DNA from: Nostoc sp. NMS7
GTDB lineage: Bacteria; Cyanobacteriota; Cyanobacteriia; Cyanobacteriales; Nostocaceae
Length of the DNA: 64,000 nucleotides
Assembly: GCF_017115085.1 (NCBI RefSeq)
Contig: NZ_JABXKJ010000246.1
Location: 1 to 64,000, forward strand
Reading direction: 5' to 3'
Part shown: positions 1 through 7,835 of the stretch, in pieces
How the letters are laid out: every line of letters begins with the position of its first letter
Numbering within the stretch: the stretch's first letter is position 1
Made by a program: the position numbers and the translations under genes
The notes under the pieces: generated by a model
The model's input: only the letters and a program-made list of their open reading frames with translations
Databases searched by the model: none
What the model was told of the DNA's origin: nothing

Positions 1-486
1 TTCATTGGTTTGAGGAGATGATGTCATGTTGACTATTTTAGGCTTTTTAGAGTTACTGTAATTAAATATGTAAAGTTTTGTATTAGGATTCAACATTTCT
101 GGTTCAGTGTTAATTATCTTTCCTGCTTGATAAAACTTATTCAGTCGCAGAAAAACAGCGCATATTCCCTCATGAATATGGATTTTCTGCCTTAAATCTA
201 TTCCATCATTGTCTAATCCTGTTAAATGAATTAAACCTGTATCATCTAATTGAAAAGATTCCTTAATTAACCAAGATAATGCGACGAAATCACTTCCTTG
301 CCAGAATAATTCAATAGTATCAGCAGTCAAAGACCATGATATATGTCCTCCGCGTTGACGAGATGAGGGATATTGCTTTTCTAATCGCTTTAAAGTCATG
401 TAAAGTCCCGTCATACCGACGCAGTGCATTATTGTCGTATCCGCAGCATCGAGAGATAGGGAAATTTTGGTTTGGGTAGCAACCAT
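1..486 (-). CDS. cas8: Cas8-like large subunit of a type I CRISPR effector (MYXAN/Cmx8 type), 3' part off the window
   Basis: An open frame starts at the ATG at 486 and runs off the left edge after 162 codons, so only the N-terminus is visible. It follows cas6 by two bases, which indicates one leftward operon. The N-terminus has an early ISLSLDAAD stretch and a GMTGLYMTLKRLE stretch, which I associate with Cmx8-type Cas8 proteins. In this family the large subunit sits in the Cascade complex and helps target recognition. The cas6-then-cas8 order fits type I-B/MYXAN operons. Identity rests on context and partial motif memory; the catalytic or PAM-contacting region cannot be seen. Confidence 0.6.
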   Translation of the reverse strand, partial: MVATQTKISLSLDAADTTIMHCVGMTGLYMTLKRLEKQYPSSRQRGGHISWSLTADTIELFWQGSDFVALSWLIKESFQLDDTGLIHLTGLDNDGIDLRQKIHIHEGICAVFLRLNKFYQAGKIINTEPEMLNPNTKLYIFNYSNSKKPKIVNMTSSPQTNE

Positions 487-488
487 GT

Positions 489-1160
489 TCAGGTTTCCTC
501 GGTTTCCTCTTCTTCCTTGCTGCGAGTCGCGGGGACAAATATTCCACACATCATCTTTCGTTTCCCACCAATGCCCTGTTCTTGCAAGGTTAGGGAATCT
601 TCAGGATTGAGTTCACTGATTTTTACGCCAAATCCTCTAACTTTAAACTGTTTCCCTTCTTTATTGATGGTTAATTGTCTTCGTTGAGGTGTTCCATCTT
701 GTCGAGTGAGAAGTTCAATTTTTCCTTGTATTCCTAAATTATCCAGTTGCCGTTGCACAGCTTCAATAAAATTATTAGAGTCTTGAAACCCTTTAATTAT
801 CACTAATCTGGAATAGACACTTTCTGAAGAAATTAACGGTTTGTAATCAGGAATATCTAGTTGATAAAAGTTTTGACCTATATGAAAGAATTGACCCGCT
901 AAATAAGGATAAATTAAAGGAATTTGTTGATAATAAATCCGAATTTTTAGACGAGATTGAGCAGTGAGTTCAAGCAAATTGTTCCTGGTCGGTATTCCAG
1001 CAATCGGATGAATCCCAATAGACTTTAGTTCGTGAAGGCTAGGACAAATACTGGACAAAGCACTATAGATAACATAACCATTATCAAGAGGAATCGGTGC
1101 GCCTCTGAGCTTAAACGTTAAGTCTACATATTCCTCACTGTGAATTAATATGACTGCCAT
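489..1160 (-). CDS. cas6: CRISPR pre-crRNA processing endoribonuclease Cas6 (Cmx6-like)
   Basis: A 223-residue protein with the layout of Cmx6-type Cas6: an N-terminal beta-rich start (VDLTFKLRG), a PLDNGYVIYSALS segment, LHELKSIGIHPIAG, a YSRLVIIKGF segment near 116-125, and the C-terminal glycine-rich loop GIGGKRKMMCGIFVP at 196-210. Cas6 cuts CRISPR transcripts in their repeats and usually stays bound to the crRNA. The second M in KMMCG occupies a position I expect to be Gly in relatives. The last residues are a run of Glu/Thr. It is the first visible gene of a leftward operon with a cas8-like gene. No CRISPR repeat lies between it and the transposon end. The family call is strong; the subtype is less certain. 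Confidence 0.82.
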   Translation of the reverse strand: MAVILIHSEEYVDLTFKLRGAPIPLDNGYVIYSALSSICPSLHELKSIGIHPIAGIPTRNNLLELTAQSRLKIRIYYQQIPLIYPYLAGQFFHIGQNFYQLDIPDYKPLISSESVYSRLVIIKGFQDSNNFIEAVQRQLDNLGIQGKIELLTRQDGTPQRRQLTINKEGKQFKVRGFGVKISELNPEDSLTLQEQGIGGKRKMMCGIFVPATRSKEEEETEET

Positions 1161-1211
1161 AGATGGAAATTTTGAGATGTCAGAGTTTGTTTAATACATC
1201 AACATCCTCTT

Positions 1212-1376
1212 ATGCAAAATTGTCCTCATTGTCATCGCCGACTACTTTGGTTAGAGTGGCAATCCAGTTTAGGCTATTGTTCGCAATATTCTTACTGGTT
1301 AGGAGGATCTTCTAATACTCCAGTAGTTACTCAAAACAGATGGATAGCCAAAAGTTTCTATCCCATACCAGCATAA
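1212..1376 (+). CDS. Small ORF with a CxxC motif, uncertain
   Basis: A 54-residue frame opens with MQNCPHCHRRLLW and has a further Cys near residue 23, so it could hold a small zinc ribbon. It lies between cas6 (opposite strand) and the transposon-end repeats. I do not recognise it. It could be a truncated transposon gene, for example a fragment of a zinc-finger-bearing TniQ/TnsD protein, or a chance frame. No good ribosome binding site is visible. Low confidence. Confidence 0.25.
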   Translation: MQNCPHCHRRLLWLEWQSSLGYCSQYSYWLGGSSNTPVVTQNRWIAKSFYPIPA

Positions 1377-1440
1377 ACCGCTTCTGCTCCATTCTAAAAA
1401 AATCCGGCGCTTTCCTGCTTTCTATGCTTGATTGGACTCA

Positions 1441-1595
1441 CGGCAAGCTTATCCTTCCAATTCGGACTAGCGGCAAAGTTATGGTTCCAAACTGTCAATT
1501 TCATCCAAAATTAGCTGACGCAAGAATGAGGGTTATAGTGTTGTTGACGGCAAAGTTATGGTTCCATTCGCGGCAAAGTTATGGGTAAAGTCACA
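1441..1595 (-). repeat. Four TnsB-site-like repeats at the transposon terminus
   Basis: On the plus strand the core CGGCAAAGTTATGG occurs at 1471-1484, 1548-1561 and 1571-1584, with a diverged copy (CGGCAAGCTTATCC) at 1441-1454. Start-to-start spacings are 30, 77 and 23 bp. All copies share one orientation. The outer end is the TCACA at 1591-1595, which is TGTGA on the minus strand. Spaced, same-orientation sites ending in TGT are characteristic of Tn7-like ends. Binding by TnsB is inferred, not shown. Confidence 0.6.
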
Positions 1596-1653
1596 GAATC
1601 ATTGAATAAGTTTCTTCCTTGTCTCTTCCTAATGCTCAATATTATTTAATTGC

Positions 1654-2601
1654 TCAGTATCCAGCTTGTTTGTCTACGACATTCCGCAAGGGCTGACCAG
1701 TTTGGTAGCGTTTGAGATTGTCGATAAATAGTTGTGCTATGCGCTCTCTCAACGGTGGCGAAAGGGCTGAACAATGGGGTGTGATAAAGGCGTTTGGCAA
1801 CGACCATAAGGGACTTTCCTGTGGCAGAGGTTCTGTAGCCACTGTATCTAATCCAGCACCCGCAATCCATCCCTCACGTAGTGCGGTGAGCAATGCAACT
1901 TCATCTACTATTGCACCACGAGCAATATTAATTAGGTAAGCAGATTGACGCATAGAGCGCAATGCAGCTTCATCGATCAAGCCTTTAGTTTCTATAGTTA
2001 ATGGTGTAGCAATAACTACATAGTCGGCTGTCGGGAGGAGCGATCGCCACTCATCGGCACCCACAACTTTGTCAAAATTCGGTAGGGGTTCAGGATGGCG
2101 GCGACTACCCCAAACTGTAACTCCAAAGGCTTTGGCACGAGATGCGATCGCTTGACCGATATTTCCTGTGCCAAGAATTAATAAAGTCGCGTCTGCCAAC
2201 TCTTCGAGAAACACTCCTCTTACCCAAGTGTGTTCATCCTGCAAAGTTTGCAATTTCCGCAGATTCTTGGCGTGATAGAGCATGAATGCCAGTACAAATT
2301 CTGAAATCGGAATTGCGTGAACTCCTGCGGCATTAGTGAGGATAATGTCCTTTTGCAAAAAAGCTGGCGTGAGGATGTGATTCACGCCAGCACTCGGCGA
2401 CTGTTGCCAACGCAGCGCGGGTGCTGCCGTCAATACTTTGTCAAGGGTAGAAGTTTTCAGGTAAAATCCGTTGAGATAAACTTCTGCATCACTAGCATCA
2501 CCATCAAGATTACCTTCACTATCCACCCCCACAACATCTATATCAGATGGTAGGTGTGGCTCAATATTAGCAATCAGATGATCGGCTAAAATTAGTTTCA
2601 C
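1654..2601 (-). CDS. D-isomer-specific 2-hydroxyacid dehydrogenase family protein
   Basis: A 315-residue NAD(P)-dependent oxidoreductase that should reduce a 2-oxoacid to the D-2-hydroxyacid, or the reverse. The Rossmann dinucleotide motif GTGNIG is at 144-149. The catalytic triad of the family is in place: Arg228 (IARGA), Glu257 (ATEPL) and His276 (TPHCS). The length is normal for this soluble cytoplasmic family. The substrate cannot be told; glyoxylate/hydroxypyruvate reductase-like enzymes are the nearest group. The 3' end lies 58 bp from the proposed transposon terminus, so the element inserted just downstream without breaking the gene. A strong hairpin lies upstream at 2728-2761. Confidence 0.88.
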   Translation of the reverse strand: MKLILADHLIANIEPHLPSDIDVVGVDSEGNLDGDASDAEVYLNGFYLKTSTLDKVLTAAPALRWQQSPSAGVNHILTPAFLQKDIILTNAAGVHAIPISEFVLAFMLYHAKNLRKLQTLQDEHTWVRGVFLEELADATLLILGTGNIGQAIASRAKAFGVTVWGSRRHPEPLPNFDKVVGADEWRSLLPTADYVVIATPLTIETKGLIDEAALRSMRQSAYLINIARGAIVDEVALLTALREGWIAGAGLDTVATEPLPQESPLWSLPNAFITPHCSALSPPLRERIAQLFIDNLKRYQTGQPLRNVVDKQAGY

Positions 2602-2727
2602 GATTTGCTACTCCCCCATTCGATTTTGGATTTTAAGGTGAAAAACATCTAATTTGCATAACCTAATTAAACATAATTCTTGTGGGGCGGGCAAGATGCC
2701 ATTGGTTTCGCTAAACGCTCAGAAGAT

Positions 2728-2761
2728 AGAACCCCGACTTCTGGTGAGAAGTCGGGGTTCT
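2728..2761. terminator. Perfect 15-bp inverted repeat, probable terminator or dispersed hairpin
   Basis: The arms 2728-2742 and 2747-2761 are fully complementary around a 4-nt loop; the core is CCCCGACTTCT/AGAAGTCGGGG. It sits about 80 nt past the end of bcsA and could stop that leftward transcript, although no long T-run follows. A related hairpin with the same core occurs at 55458-55490, so this is also a dispersed repeat. Confidence 0.55.
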
Positions 2762-2843
2762 GGGTACTATATTTGAGCATTTCCAGGTTCTATCTGGAAA
2801 CTAGATTTTCAAAGTGTTTTGGCTTAAATTGATAGCAATGTTG

Positions 2844-5456
2844 CTACAGAACTTGCAACAGTTGTTTAATTTTACTGTCTTGGCGTTCCTTGAATTTTTC
2901 TGGAAAAATTAACTCGATCGCAATCTTGCCATTTGCCTGTTCTTCGACTGCATAAATTTCGGCAACAAATCGGTTAGATGAGGAATTTTCGACATCCTGA
3001 TTTAACAGTAAACCAACCAGTGGTTTCACAGTTCGCATCGTATGCAAATCCTGTTGTCCAATCATTTTGTGAGAAGACATGGCTTTTTTATCCTCTATTT
3101 CCAAGCGCAAACCCGTTGTTCCTAGTTCTGTGGCTACTCCAAAGAAGAAGTTACCATCCCAGTAGAGTTGACTATTCGTGTTTACCTGCTTGCGTACCTT
3201 TTTACGACTAGTTTGGTTGAGGTCATGCAAGGCCCTAGTCAAACTCGTGGCTAGAAATCCCAGGGAAGCTAGGGGCTTGTCTACGTACTGGGCTTTCTGA
3301 GAATACCACTCCCGGACATCAGAATATAAAACTAGAGTTAAAGCATCGCGTTGGGCACTGTTGAGCTTCACAAAATCAACACCCAAAAGCGTTTGTGTGT
3401 CATTTATAGGGGAGACTCGGACAATCTGCGCCGTTAAAGAGGCGCTAGCAGTATAATCTCCCATCACCTCAACTTCTACTTCATCCAGTAAATTGGGCCA
3501 GGTTTCCAAAGAAATTAAGGCGCCAGTTTCGGAAATATTCACCGTTTTGCCCATGATTGTCTGACCGTTACTGGTAATTAAAATGGGCAGACGACGCTGT
3601 AAACGGTGGGCAGTACGTATTTGCGGTTGTTCAAAGCCAACCAGCAAAGCAGCTGAGAGTAAAACCAGATTAAAAATAGACCACATGGTGTTGACTAAGA
3701 CCGCCTGCCAATCTTCAGGACGTAGCAGCAGCCAATAGGGAACAGCCAGTAAGGAAGAGACTACAAATCCTGTCACCACCAAAAGACCACGCATTGATTC
3801 CCAATCAAAGATGCGTTTACTAATAGATGTTCCCTTGTCGGTAACGTTAAATGAACCCAGCTTGGGGTTAAACAATGCCAACATCGTCACCCATCCAGCC
3901 TGGAAAGCCATCGCAAATTCAAAAATTTCATTCCAGAAGGAGAACCGGACGTTTTTGTAAATGATGTAGTTAGTAAAAAGGGAGAGGAGAATATGGGGTA
4001 GGGCATAAGCTAGCGTTTCTAAACCCAAACCTTGAACAGAGTTAACGCCAAATAATAAAAATAGCGGCGGTGCGATCGCATATGTTAGTCGAGGATAGCC
4101 ATACAGAAAGTGGGAAGTCGCGCTAAAATAACAAATCCTCTGGGCAAATGTCAGGTTCAGCTTCCGATTAAAAACGGGATTTTCCAATCGCAGAATCTGC
4201 GCCATCCCCCTTGCCCAACGCACTTGTTGCCCCACATAAGAAGAAAACGTTTCTGGTGCTAAACCAGCCACCATAATTTTGTCGTAGTAGACAGACTTGT
4301 AACCCAGCGAATGCAATCGCAAGGCAGTGTGACAATCTTCTGTCACTGTTTCTACCGCAATTCCCCCAACTTCTAAAGCGTGGGATTTACGGATCAATGC
4401 TGCCGAACCGCAGAAAAAGGCGGCATTCCAAAAATCGTTACCTTTTTGCAGTACCTTGTAAAACAGTTCATTGCCTGCGGGGATTCTACCTTTTGTGACT
4501 AAATTACGCTCGAAGGGATCGGGGTTATAGAACCAGTGGGGAGTTTGGACAAAGGATACTTTGGGATCGAAGAAAAAACCCATTGTATGCAGGAGAATTT
4601 GCCGCGATGGGATGTGGTCACAGTCCAAAATCAACACTAAATCGCCGTCGGTTTTTTCAAAGGCGGTATTGATATTACCAGCTTTAGCGTGGTCATTACT
4701 GTCCCGCGTCATGTGTATACAGCCGAGTTCTTCGCACATTTGCCGTAGCAGTTCCCGTCTGGCGCTAAACTGTTCTCGGCGTGGGTCGTTTTCTTTATAC
4801 TTTTCTGGACGACCATCATCAAGAACATAAACGATTTTTTTATCGGCAGCATAATCACAAGCCAAGGCTGCGACGGCAGTCTTACGCACAATCTCCACGT
4901 CTTCGTTGTAAGTGGGGATGTAGATATCGACTTTGAACCATTCCTGTTCAGGAATGTTTGTGAGATTAACTGGTTGGCGTTCTTGAATTTTCAGAGTTTG
5001 AAAGTATGCCAATACTAAGGTGAGGATGGCATAGAGTTCGGCGAGAAACAACAACGTACAAGCGATGCTGTTGAGCCAACCATCAAAGTTGAGGGTATAA
5101 CTGGTGCGGTAGAATAAGTAACGCAACGTTGTTACAATACTCAGCCAGACCAAAAACAAGTGGTAATACTGGCTGATTTCTGGAGAGTCCTCTTGAAACT
5201 CTGCGTGGATCACCAGTTGACCGAGTAGCACCATAAATACTGCGACCAATCCTTGCTGCCAAACTTCTATCGGAGTAATAATCAGTGGCACTGATAGCAC
5301 TAATAGGAGCAGGATTAACCACTTAAACTGTTTCACACCTACCTTTTGGAGAGTGTGGTCAAAAAATCGGGGAGTAATATCAATCAGCCAATTGCTCAAT
5401 TTTAAGCGCTGGCGATCGCGTGATTTCCGGGGCAATGTGTCGGGGGAAGAAGACAT
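2844..5456 (-). CDS. bcsA: Cellulose synthase catalytic subunit with C-terminal PilZ domain
   Basis: A 870-residue inner-membrane GT2 synthase that polymerises UDP-glucose into beta-1,4-glucan and moves the chain through its own membrane channel. Numbered from the ATG at 5456, the catalytic motifs are DDG 213-215, DCD 278-280, FFCGS near 347, TED 372-374 and QQVRW 410-414. Hydrophobic helices precede and follow the catalytic domain. A C-terminal PilZ domain has an RLQRR motif and NISETG, the c-di-GMP contact motifs, so activation by c-di-GMP is likely. A TTG 12 bases upstream could also start; neither start has a good Shine-Dalgarno. It is the last gene of the leftward cellulose series, 57 bp after bcsB. 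Confidence 0.93.
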   Translation of the reverse strand: MSSSPDTLPRKSRDRQRLKLSNWLIDITPRFFDHTLQKVGVKQFKWLILLLLVLSVPLIITPIEVWQQGLVAVFMVLLGQLVIHAEFQEDSPEISQYYHLFLVWLSIVTTLRYLFYRTSYTLNFDGWLNSIACTLLFLAELYAILTLVLAYFQTLKIQERQPVNLTNIPEQEWFKVDIYIPTYNEDVEIVRKTAVAALACDYAADKKIVYVLDDGRPEKYKENDPRREQFSARRELLRQMCEELGCIHMTRDSNDHAKAGNINTAFEKTDGDLVLILDCDHIPSRQILLHTMGFFFDPKVSFVQTPHWFYNPDPFERNLVTKGRIPAGNELFYKVLQKGNDFWNAAFFCGSAALIRKSHALEVGGIAVETVTEDCHTALRLHSLGYKSVYYDKIMVAGLAPETFSSYVGQQVRWARGMAQILRLENPVFNRKLNLTFAQRICYFSATSHFLYGYPRLTYAIAPPLFLLFGVNSVQGLGLETLAYALPHILLSLFTNYIIYKNVRFSFWNEIFEFAMAFQAGWVTMLALFNPKLGSFNVTDKGTSISKRIFDWESMRGLLVVTGFVVSSLLAVPYWLLLRPEDWQAVLVNTMWSIFNLVLLSAALLVGFEQPQIRTAHRLQRRLPILITSNGQTIMGKTVNISETGALISLETWPNLLDEVEVEVMGDYTASASLTAQIVRVSPINDTQTLLGVDFVKLNSAQRDALTLVLYSDVREWYSQKAQYVDKPLASLGFLATSLTRALHDLNQTSRKKVRKQVNTNSQLYWDGNFFFGVATELGTTGLRLEIEDKKAMSSHKMIGQQDLHTMRTVKPLVGLLLNQDVENSSSNRFVAEIYAVEEQANGKIAIELIFPEKFKERQDSKIKQLLQVL

Positions 5457-5513: not shown

Positions 5514-7835
5514 CTACTTTTTGTCAGCAGTTAGCCGCTTCAGATACAACTGAACAATCCCGTAAAGAATTAGGGAAACACTCAAAATGCCTACAGGTAC
5601 CAATAGCCAATTTTCTTGTAAAAAGCGTGATGCTTTACTGAGGGGAGTGGTATTTTCCCAGCGACGAGTGTTCGGGGCGCTTTCAAAAAACTGTAGTTGA
5701 TAGGCATCAGCATCGTAAGTAAGTGAGTCTTTTTGATCACTACTAATTAGCACCGTATCCTTTTTAAGTTGAAAGAACCACGGATCTTGATTAAGGACTT
5801 GTCGCACTCGCTCTAAACCAGTTTCGGTTTGAGATGTTAAAGCTAAAAGGACGCGATCGCTATTCCAAGGAGAGATAATTTGTTTAATCATCCCTTGTGT
5901 ATCCTGTGGAGTCTGAACCACAGCATAGGCAGAGGAGCGAGAAAATGCTTGATTCAAGTTAAAGCCACTGGAATTAAACACTTCCGGGAAAGGAAACTCT
6001 TCTCGCGTTCCAATTCCTACCAAATGGTCATTTTTGCGGACTTTTGTTGGCAAACCATCTGGTGTATAAACTTCTAGTTTGACGGTATCTGCTTGACTGA
6101 GCCTGCCTAAGCGTTCGCTAAAAGCTAACAAGGTCAAAATATCTGTCCTCGAGGGTATTTGGGGCAAGACAATCGCCGTCTGAGACAAATCCTGTGGTGC
6201 GGCAAAGGGAAAACCGAATTTCAGCAGGTTCAAGTCTGGTAGTTGTGTAGATATCTCCCGCTTCAGATCGAAGTTAGTATCAGAATGCACCGTACCTGTA
6301 AGTTGTTGATCTGGTGGCTGAAGACAGTTCTGTTTATCAAACGGTTCTCTGGGACTCATCCGAAAGAAAACTTGCAGTTTTGAGTTAGGTTTGATTAAGT
6401 TTTCCGGCAAATTGACTTTGAGGTTTTTGCGACTTTCTCCCGACTCAGAATCAAGACGTGCCCCACCAATGAAAACTCCATCCAGTAAAACTTCCAGCGC
6501 AGAAGTTCGGGGATTAACCTGAGGTCCATAGCTGTATATCAGATTCATCGAACTACCCCGGAGAAATCGATCATCCGGTAAAGCGCGAAAATCAACTTCA
6601 ATTGGTGGTGCCCCCATCCCACGTACAGTGACATCATTAAACGGCTCACCATTTACCTGAGTTTTGATGTCGCTGAGTTTAAAAGAATTTTGCTCTGGCA
6701 AATAACGAGGCCACTGGCGCAGTCCTGGTGTCGAACCTTCCTTGAGGGTATTGACAAAAACTACCTGACCAGTTGCCATTTTGCGTAAGTCTGGCTGTGA
6801 TAAAAATTCGGTGGCCTTTTCCACAGCTTTTGTGCTGTTGCCAGTGGCAATTAAAACCGGAACCCCAGTCTTTTCAGTTTTTGTGATCATCAATACCCCT
6901 GTTTCATCTGGTACGGGGTTGTTATCACGATCCAGAATTTGATTGCTGACGACTTTCAGGGGTAAATTTTTCCAAGTATTTAGGGCTGGTTGCTCGGTGG
7001 GAGTGCCAATGATCACCAAGCGATCGCTTGCTTTCACATTTGCCACATTAGACACCAAGCTCGTCTGAATCGGGCGAAAATCCGCGATTCTTCCCAATCC
7101 TGCTTGTAAGCGAGCTGCTGCTGTCAGCCAGGATTGATCAATTTGACTCGGTTGCAAGTAAGCAATTTGGTTAGTTTCTAAGCCGAGTTCGTCAAACAAA
7201 GGATAAGGATAGCGGCTGAAATTCAGGGGAATCGACTGCTGTTCATAGTTCAAGATTAATTTGGAATCTGGCAGAATCTCTGTCCACAAGTCGGGACTAC
7301 TGGGGTCGCTACATTCGAGAGTGTTATTCTGCTGTGCCACCAATACGAGTTCGTTGTAGTCTTGAAGCAGCTTTGGTGGGATATTGAATAGTACTTGACC
7401 TACTTGGGACTCTTTGCGATTGAGTGGTACGCTACCAACACTGGTGCCATTGAGTAGCACGGTCAGGTTGGAGCGATTGGCATACAGTGATGGTGAGTGT
7501 TGAAAGCGGATTAAGGCTTGTACTTTACCCCGATCTAATTTCCACCCACGGGGACGGGTAAAAGCAAGACGACCTTCTGAATAAACCCCACGTAAGCGCA
7601 TCCGGTTGCCCACAATCGGACTACGATTAAATTCTAGGATGTAAGTTGCCAATTTTTTGGCGTTAGCAGTTTCTAAGTCTGCTTTACTACTACTTTCTGA
7701 TGTCGTTGCTTGAGCTAATGAAGTTACTTTGGTTTGAGCTTGAGCGCTCAATAATGAACTAGGGAACAAAAAAAAGCAGGAAGTAACAATAATTGCTTTT
7801 TTACTAATTTGGGAAAGATGAAACAACTGCTTCAT
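5514..7835 (-). CDS. bcsB: Cellulose synthase periplasmic subunit BcsB
   Basis: A 773-residue protein with an N-terminal signal sequence (hydrophobic AIIVTSCFFLFPSSLL then AQAQ) and a single C-terminal membrane helix (VGILSVSLILYG) before a basic tail. This is the topology of BcsB, which docks on BcsA, activates it, and carries the growing glucan through the periplasm with carbohydrate-binding and flavodoxin-like domains. Length is normal. The frame is open to a TTG at 7868, but the ATG at 7835 directly precedes a normal signal peptide, so I chose it. It lies immediately upstream of bcsA. Confidence 0.88.
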   Translation of the reverse strand: MKQLFHLSQISKKAIIVTSCFFLFPSSLLSAQAQTKVTSLAQATTSESSSKADLETANAKKLATYILEFNRSPIVGNRMRLRGVYSEGRLAFTRPRGWKLDRGKVQALIRFQHSPSLYANRSNLTVLLNGTSVGSVPLNRKESQVGQVLFNIPPKLLQDYNELVLVAQQNNTLECSDPSSPDLWTEILPDSKLILNYEQQSIPLNFSRYPYPLFDELGLETNQIAYLQPSQIDQSWLTAAARLQAGLGRIADFRPIQTSLVSNVANVKASDRLVIIGTPTEQPALNTWKNLPLKVVSNQILDRDNNPVPDETGVLMITKTEKTGVPVLIATGNSTKAVEKATEFLSQPDLRKMATGQVVFVNTLKEGSTPGLRQWPRYLPEQNSFKLSDIKTQVNGEPFNDVTVRGMGAPPIEVDFRALPDDRFLRGSSMNLIYSYGPQVNPRTSALEVLLDGVFIGGARLDSESGESRKNLKVNLPENLIKPNSKLQVFFRMSPREPFDKQNCLQPPDQQLTGTVHSDTNFDLKREISTQLPDLNLLKFGFPFAAPQDLSQTAIVLPQIPSRTDILTLLAFSERLGRLSQADTVKLEVYTPDGLPTKVRKNDHLVGIGTREEFPFPEVFNSSGFNLNQAFSRSSAYAVVQTPQDTQGMIKQIISPWNSDRVLLALTSQTETGLERVRQVLNQDPWFFQLKKDTVLISSDQKDSLTYDADAYQLQFFESAPNTRRWENTTPLSKASRFLQENWLLVPVGILSVSLILYGIVQLYLKRLTADKK

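Follow-up and report, generated by a model that had tools for sequence, protein, structure and literature searches.

A broken type I-B2 CRISPR-associated transposon in Nostoc sp. NMS7 and a guide module found with two transposase lineages

The window analysed here, a stretch of 64,000 nucleotides from Nostoc sp. NMS7 which starts at the first base of contig C122, carries at positions 102–1595 the cas6-side end of a type I-B2 CRISPR-associated transposon (CAST). Judged by its sequence, this copy is one more type I-B2 CAST, and a broken one. We hold it very likely that the data as a whole are best explained by one account, in which this end belongs to an element spread over three contigs that would have arrived by TnsD homing and been inactivated afterwards, and whose cas–CRISPR–tniQ module would be common to a second transposase lineage.

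The cas genes and the transposon end in the window

The cas6 gene occupies positions 489–1160 of the minus strand as an open frame of 223 codons, and its product matched PF09559 (E 4e-67) and TIGR02807 (E 7e-57) in a profile search. It is 94% identical, over residues 1–215 of 220, to the Cas6 of locus L042 from a Peltigera cyanobiont, and its best segment is 95% identical to the Peltigera membranacea cyanobiont 210A locus (18 of the 58 candidate stretches from the search for Cas6 relatives were relatives). From the strain and the tRNA-Val site, we infer that the element of L042 and L095–L096 is the published PmcCAST (Tn7744). The minus-strand frame at 1–549 begins as a cas8 of the Csx13/Cmx1 type (TIGR03485 positions 2–116 of 316, E 3.8e-34), with 87% identity to residues 1–146 of the 543-residue L042 Cas8. 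In the comparison with L042, the Cas8 sequence reaches down to base 103 only, leaving a truncated 5' part of ~146 codons (102–549, minus strand). A first-pass annotation, made from the letters alone, had read a cas6 followed by the start of a cas8-like gene, and the profile models bear out both.

Positions 1–101 (minus strand) are repeated at the ends of 13 further contigs, with 96–99% identity over the aligned stretch, and for this reason are taken as the end of a multi-copy insertion sequence (IS). The assembly break at window base 1 is inside this IS, which cuts cas8 after ~146 codons. The closing 98 bases of contig C112, near-full copies of which were found at 11 other places, six of them at contig base 1, are probably the opposite end of the IS that cuts cas8. 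By eye, the first bases of C112 and the IS terminus in the window are alike at 12 of 14 positions. A single IS copy between C122 and C112 is the simplest reading.

The transposon end itself lies at 1441–1595 on the minus strand. It closes with a TGTGAC terminus at 1595 and contains four 19-bp TnsB-type sites in the same orientation, which start at 1441, 1471, 1548 and 1571 and span 155 bp from the first site to the terminus; TnsB would presumably bind them. A site pattern with two mismatches allowed matched these four sites and no others in the 64 kb, against 0.08 matches expected by chance, and four matches were reached in none of 100 shuffles; the pattern was written from the four window sites, which therefore match by construction. 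Stronger evidence is the recurrence of the spacing: exact steps of 30/77/23 were found in 11 of the 25 sources scanned, the window included, with a matrix to which several elements, this one included, had contributed sites. The terminus and the four same-orientation repeats over 155 bp, both noted in the first pass, are confirmed in this way. In another genome, the element G079b is 94.6% identical to window positions 1141–1595. A variant of the site arrangement was observed in Richelia intracellularis (L053 1886–1996), where the end-proximal site is repeated in tandem in 23-bp steps, with three extra copies beyond the usual four.

The wide spacing of the sites had initially been likened to the sparse end of Tn7. 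The right end of Tn7 is its dense end. In another Tn7-like element of this genome, on contig C119, the four-site end is located directly 5' of tnsAB, and in FACHB-260 an end 75% identical to that of the window lies on the 5' side of tnsAB, with 4 kb between them, while the other end is beside tnsD. Because ends of the window's kind lie 5' of tnsAB in both, the window end would, by gene position, be the equivalent of the right (tnsA-side) end of Tn7, and the likeness to the sparse end is not upheld.

The rest of the element on two further contigs

A 5.6-kb query from the 210A cas locus, with 40 of 175 candidates scored, matched C122:102–1598 (92%) and C112:14224–16308 (90%) in this genome; the other matches were short. 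For query bases 1876–3062, which correspond to Cas8 residues 147–543 and the start of cas7, there was no match among the same 40 of 175 candidates, and a Cas8 model search of the genome returned nothing beyond the window start, so that the last 397 Cas8 residues were not found. A small contig with the remaining part of cas8 could be lost from the assembly; the shortest of the 20 contigs sampled has 2578 bp.

A second query, covering the tnsAB–tnsC–tnsD region (40 of 61 candidates scored), matched C259:46922–50779 (84%) and C112:59–2052 (96%), and the two matches meet inside tnsAB with a 2-base overlap. TnsA and TnsB form one fused frame, interrupted by an IS and found in two parts on C112 and C259. 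Since the two contig ends carry one short sequence in opposite orientation at the tnsAB break, a second IS probably splits the gene. As compared to G079b, the tnsAB halves are 93.9% and 99.0% identical, and they fall at different places in the TnsAB tree, which could reflect a mosaic or unequal constraint. Next to tnsAB lies tnsC, which is open over 383 aa (L080 8435–9586, minus strand; AAA_22 E 2.3e-14, TniB E 4.4e-5). C259 also carries tnsD, larger than the small TniQ, in three frames or pieces. TniQ is encoded on C112 by an open frame of 329 aa (PF06527 E 1.9e-20).

The Cas7 sequence on C112 is free of internal stops, but the first six residues are missing. Its identity to the L042 Cas7 is 93%, and its best model, Cst2/DevR, scored 63.6 bits, below the cut-off of 72.75, while cas6, the cas8 start and cas5 are above their model cut-offs. 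A CRISPR array of four 36-nt repeats and three spacers lies inside the element (C112 14224–14473). The cargo of C112 includes a type I restriction-modification system, with hsdM in two frames, and a KAP NTPase; none of the eight cargo frames scanned, out of a cargo that also includes at least two frames of ~100 aa, gave a cas family. When the three spacers were compared with 1.79 Mb of sequence, the matches were the array itself and chance-level matches of 13–14 bases, and within these 1.79 Mb no match above chance lay beside either flank. Among plasmids, the single hit of spacer 1, to a Nostoc plasmid, was weak and partial (29 of 37 bases, E 0.03), and spacers 2 and 3 gave none at E 0.1.

C259 thus reads, in order, tRNA-Val(GAC), 32 bp, a TGTGAC end, the broken tnsD, tnsC and the 3' part of tnsAB. 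C112 holds the 5' part of tnsAB, tniQ, the NTPase, the restriction-modification genes, the CRISPR array, cas5 and cas7 without its start, and C122 holds the cas8 start, cas6, a tnsD relic and the four-site end. From these sequences, we infer that C122, C112 and C259 carry parts of one element. The first-pass annotation had expected the element to continue to the left of the window as the end of a Tn7-like type I-B CAST; the tnsAB, tnsC, tnsD and tniQ genes, cas7, cas5, the CRISPR array and both ends were found, in agreement with this view, and the subtype is I-B2. The designation as a CAST stands, but this copy is broken: cas8 is cut, tnsAB is split by an IS and tnsD is in three frames.

Other Tn7-like sequences were observed in the same genome. 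C119 (L017 700–6610) carries a second Tn7-like element with a long open tnsAB (917 aa), tnsC and tnsD; its four-site end is at 6454–6602, and the multi-copy IS of window 1–101 is found at the contig start. C262 (L018 4973–10065) retains a remnant of a third element. It comprises a four-site end that is complete, a frame resembling a helicase and part of tnsAB, the last with 90.6% identity to its counterpart in FACHB-260 C24. C23 (L034 214–6225) carries a different Tn7-like set in separate frames of 284, 736, 544 and 444 aa, of which the 284-aa frame matches TnsA and the 444-aa frame TniQ, and the two between them are TnsB- and TnsC-like by position.

The guide module and two transposase lineages

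The cas–tniQ module occurs together with a different transposase in two genomes, in NMS9 and in the element G079a. The shared module is 79–97% identical in the Cas proteins and 82–90% in TniQ, while between the NMS9 type and the PmcCAST type TnsAB is 42–44% identical (full-length rows) and TnsC 36–37%. The NMS9 type is near-identical to the present element in cas6–8–7–5, the CRISPR repeat and tniQ, and in NMS9 also in the restriction system, but it differs in having tnsAB–tnsC–tniQ as one run at the other end and in its termini (TGTAATTTAAAG). The longer DNA pieces matching C112 in the NMS9 cas genes, restriction system, NTPase and tniQ are 82–93% identical, and the match stops 14–15 bp upstream of the tniQ start. 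In NMS9, a complete tnsD is divergent from cas6. Among the 53 genus genomes searched, two encode a TnsAB with 90% or more identity to that of NMS9, one of them, by its coordinates, apparently NMS9 itself.

In a quick, midpoint-rooted TnsAB tree, in which C119 has a long branch and two rows are less than half filled, NMS9 and G079a group with G074 and G070 (SH-aLRT 100), and the PmcCAST type groups with FACHB-260 C24 and C262 (support 99); Richelia is the earliest branch of the PmcCAST type (SH-aLRT 86–90). No cas match was seen in G074 and G070, and both transposase lineages have sisters in which cas genes were not seen. The Cas proteins are not sorted by chassis, the Cas6 of NMS9 being 95.0% identical to that of Pmc and 94.5% to that of G079a. 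TniQ is partly sorted, with NMS9 at 93.9% to G079a and at most 89.7% to the PmcCAST type. Because the Cas identities ignore the chassis and TniQ follows it in part, the sequences point to an exchange of the module and later mixing. Exchange within one cell is possible, as G079 carries both forms, with one element of each type (G079a, in a 7.83-Mb contig, and G079b).

Beside cas6, window positions 1149–1358 on the plus strand retain a relic of an NMS9-type tnsD, limited to residues 160–229. The relic shows 65.7% amino acid identity to these residues of the NMS9 TnsD (E 5e-24) and 39% to the L095 TnsD, and at the DNA level positions 1176–1347 are 86.6% identical to positions 5777–5948 of the NMS9 contig. 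In a DNA comparison of 21 sources, the NMS9-type tnsD was complete in two (L045 and L047), present as a relic or part in 13, the window included, and absent from six, namely the Richelia elements (L049 and L053) and four other loci. The breakpoints of the relic are identical in the window, Pmc and Mojavia. Judging by the relic, the module of the present lineage may once have adjoined the tnsD of the second lineage; taken together with the trees, the relic would make the cas–CRISPR–tniQ module common to a second transposase lineage. We consider it reasonably probable that one I-B guide module (cas6–8–7–5, CRISPR array and tniQ) is found on two Nostoc Tn7-like transposase lineages and has moved or recombined between them, with the relic as a transfer scar.

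The direction of such a transfer is a separate matter. It is possible, if somewhat doubtful, that the module passed from a PmcCAST-type to an NMS9-type chassis and that the relic was gained later, by recombination between co-resident elements such as the pair in G079. The rooted concatenated module tree nests NMS9 and G079a within the PmcCAST type (ultrafast bootstrap 81–93 on the relevant branches), in favour of this direction, but the AU test did not reject the PmcCAST-type modules as one clade (p-AU 0.165), and the rooting is weak, given distant outgroups and the branch of 7.69 and odd composition of PCC 7424; CHAB5824 was left out of this tree, and G037 (13%) and FACHB-260 (25%) fill few of its columns. 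The lack of the relic in Richelia, the earliest PmcCAST-type branch in the TnsAB tree, also favours that direction, and the relic may have been acquired later instead of being inherited from the ancestor. Against this, the identical relic breakpoints in the window, Pmc and Mojavia fit one capture that included tnsD. As a proof of the direction of transfer the relic was rejected, since Richelia lacks it and the module tree is undecided.

If a single module indeed serves both lineages, one TniQ–Cascade would naturally work with TnsC and TnsAB partners of no more than 36–44% identity. If both chassis are active, nature would already have made the exchange an engineer would attempt, and positions at which the two TnsC proteins agree would be candidates for the TniQ contact.

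Insertion site, proposed history and related elements

The second, TnsD-side end begins at L080 6923, 32 bp after tRNA-Val(GAC), and in L095 the transposon end is 31 bp from tRNA-Val(TAC). As predicted in the first pass, the second end starts with TGTGAC, but it is preceded by GTCGT instead of the GAATC found outside the window end. The flanking 5-mers are therefore unequal, and the 5-bp target duplication was not found. Equal 5-mers at both ends were found in three of the eight elements for which both ends were located (S4, G079b and G037), which confirms the termini. In Mojavia and FACHB-260, the flanking 5-mers share four bases out of register, and in Pmc (TTAGA, AAACT) and N. desertorum they are unequal too. 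We read the missing target duplication as a later rearrangement, not as a sign that the element falls outside the I-B2 CASTs.

Beyond the element, window positions 1596–1640 start with GAATC and are a copy of a dispersed Nostoc intergenic repeat, with matches of 39–44 bases (91–95% identical) elsewhere in three relatives; as a dispersed repeat, this stretch was dropped as an informative flank. It is followed on the minus strand (1654–2601) by a chromosomal gene, a 2-hydroxyacid dehydrogenase by eye, with copies 81–94% identical in relatives. Further dispersed repeats of ~60–65 bp were observed at 2634–2693 and 2776–2840, with copies at many places in this genome and in relatives.

In the relative G020, tRNA-Val(GAC) adjoins the same dehydrogenase gene. 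The 53 bp between them are an end-to-end scar, in which a TnsD-side terminus is fused to another terminus that deviates by one base. This arrangement in G020 ties both flanks of the present element to one locus. In G045, tRNA-Val(GAC) is 3.9 kb from the dehydrogenase. In G013, G014, G030 and G038, the end of an acyl-CoA-dehydrogenase-like gene (by eye) lies beside the dehydrogenase, and a search of the present genome for this neighbour found no match among the 40 of 152 candidates scored. Given the unequal flanks and the missing match to this neighbour, the cas6-side end was probably rejoined to other DNA after insertion.

The same two observations, together with the unequal closeness of the tnsAB halves to G079b, would also fit two insertions of the same element, so that the window end and the C259 end would come from different copies and the genome would hold parts of both. 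We regard this as unlikely: cas6, the cas8 start, cas7, cas5 and each tnsAB half were found once, one TnsD-side end was found, and in G020 the fused-end scar separates the tRNA from the dehydrogenase next to it.

The 32 bp between tRNA-Val(GAC) and the CAST end (L080 6891–6922) were observed to resemble a V-K CAST terminus, by comparison with the termini printed in the primers of PMC9527255, and NMS9 and N. desertorum have a similar stretch next to this tRNA. The tRNA-Val(GAC) site may thus have served an older element before, and several CAST kinds may share one site.

By analogy with the family roles of TnsAB, TnsC, TnsD and TniQ–Cascade set out in parts of PMC11406308, PMC10293859 and PMC8649781, in intact relatives TnsAB would bind and cut both ends and TnsC would link TnsAB to the target. 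Two selectors would act in them, TnsD leading to a site downstream of a tRNA gene, and TniQ with Cascade and the guide RNA leading to other DNA. Under the single-element reading, TnsD would have brought this copy to its place beside tRNA-Val(GAC) by homing. It would then have lost its activity through frameshifts in tnsD and the insertion of two ISs, one of them accompanied by a loss of ~1.2 kb, and either an adjacent deletion or recombination between copies would later have linked the cas6-side end to other DNA. On its sequence this copy is probably immobile; as cas8 is cut, tnsAB split and tnsD broken, neither homing nor RNA-guided insertion would be expected of it alone.

PmcCAST is described as an I-B2 element with a tRNA att site, and I-B2 CASTs as having a fused TnsA–TnsB, in passages of PMC11406308; a tRNA-Val target plasmid was used for PmcCAST in experiments covered in part of PMC10293859. 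PmcCAST (L042/L095–L096) shares with the present element the gene order, the fused TnsAB, a four-site end with identical spacing, a second end 31–32 bp from tRNA-Val and the tnsD relic, with identities of 95% in TniQ, 94% in Cas6, 95% in Cas5, 93% in Cas7 and 87–89% in the Cas8 start. Unlike PmcCAST, the present copy has a truncated cas8, a cas7 without a start, a tnsAB split by an IS and a frameshifted tnsD, lies at tRNA-Val(GAC) instead of tRNA-Val(TAC), and contains a type I restriction system. For the type I-D CAST (CyCAST), passages of PMC10293859 give TnsAB and TnsC as ~50% identical to those of PmcCAST, and describe dual selectors with TnsD homing 30–33 nt downstream of a tRNA gene. The Cascade of CyCAST is of type I-D, whereas the present element is of type I-B by its Cas6, Cas8 and Cas5 models. 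FACHB-260 C24 and C119 of this genome have the same class of ends, a fused TnsAB and the order tnsAB–tnsC–tnsD; there was no cas match in the stretches read, and their TnsAB proteins are 75% and 56% identical to that of Pmc, respectively.

That the locus is an ordinary cas locus and not a transposon is extremely improbable and was rejected: its cas6 and cas8 are of families also found in canonical loci such as that of Gloeothece PCC 7424, but the cas3 present there between cas6 and cas8 is absent from the window locus, and tniQ, tnsAB, tnsC and both ends were found, in an arrangement shared by several relatives. Neither a cas1–cas2–cas3 locus devoid of tns genes nor the lack of a matching inverted end, the two outcomes named beforehand as evidence against a CAST, was encountered. 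A distant CAST-like locus was observed on a plasmid of Gloeothece verrucosa PCC 7822 typed as conjugative (L244 6019–11093); it carries cas6–cas8–cas7–cas5 and a TniQ ~52% identical to that of the present element, without cas3.
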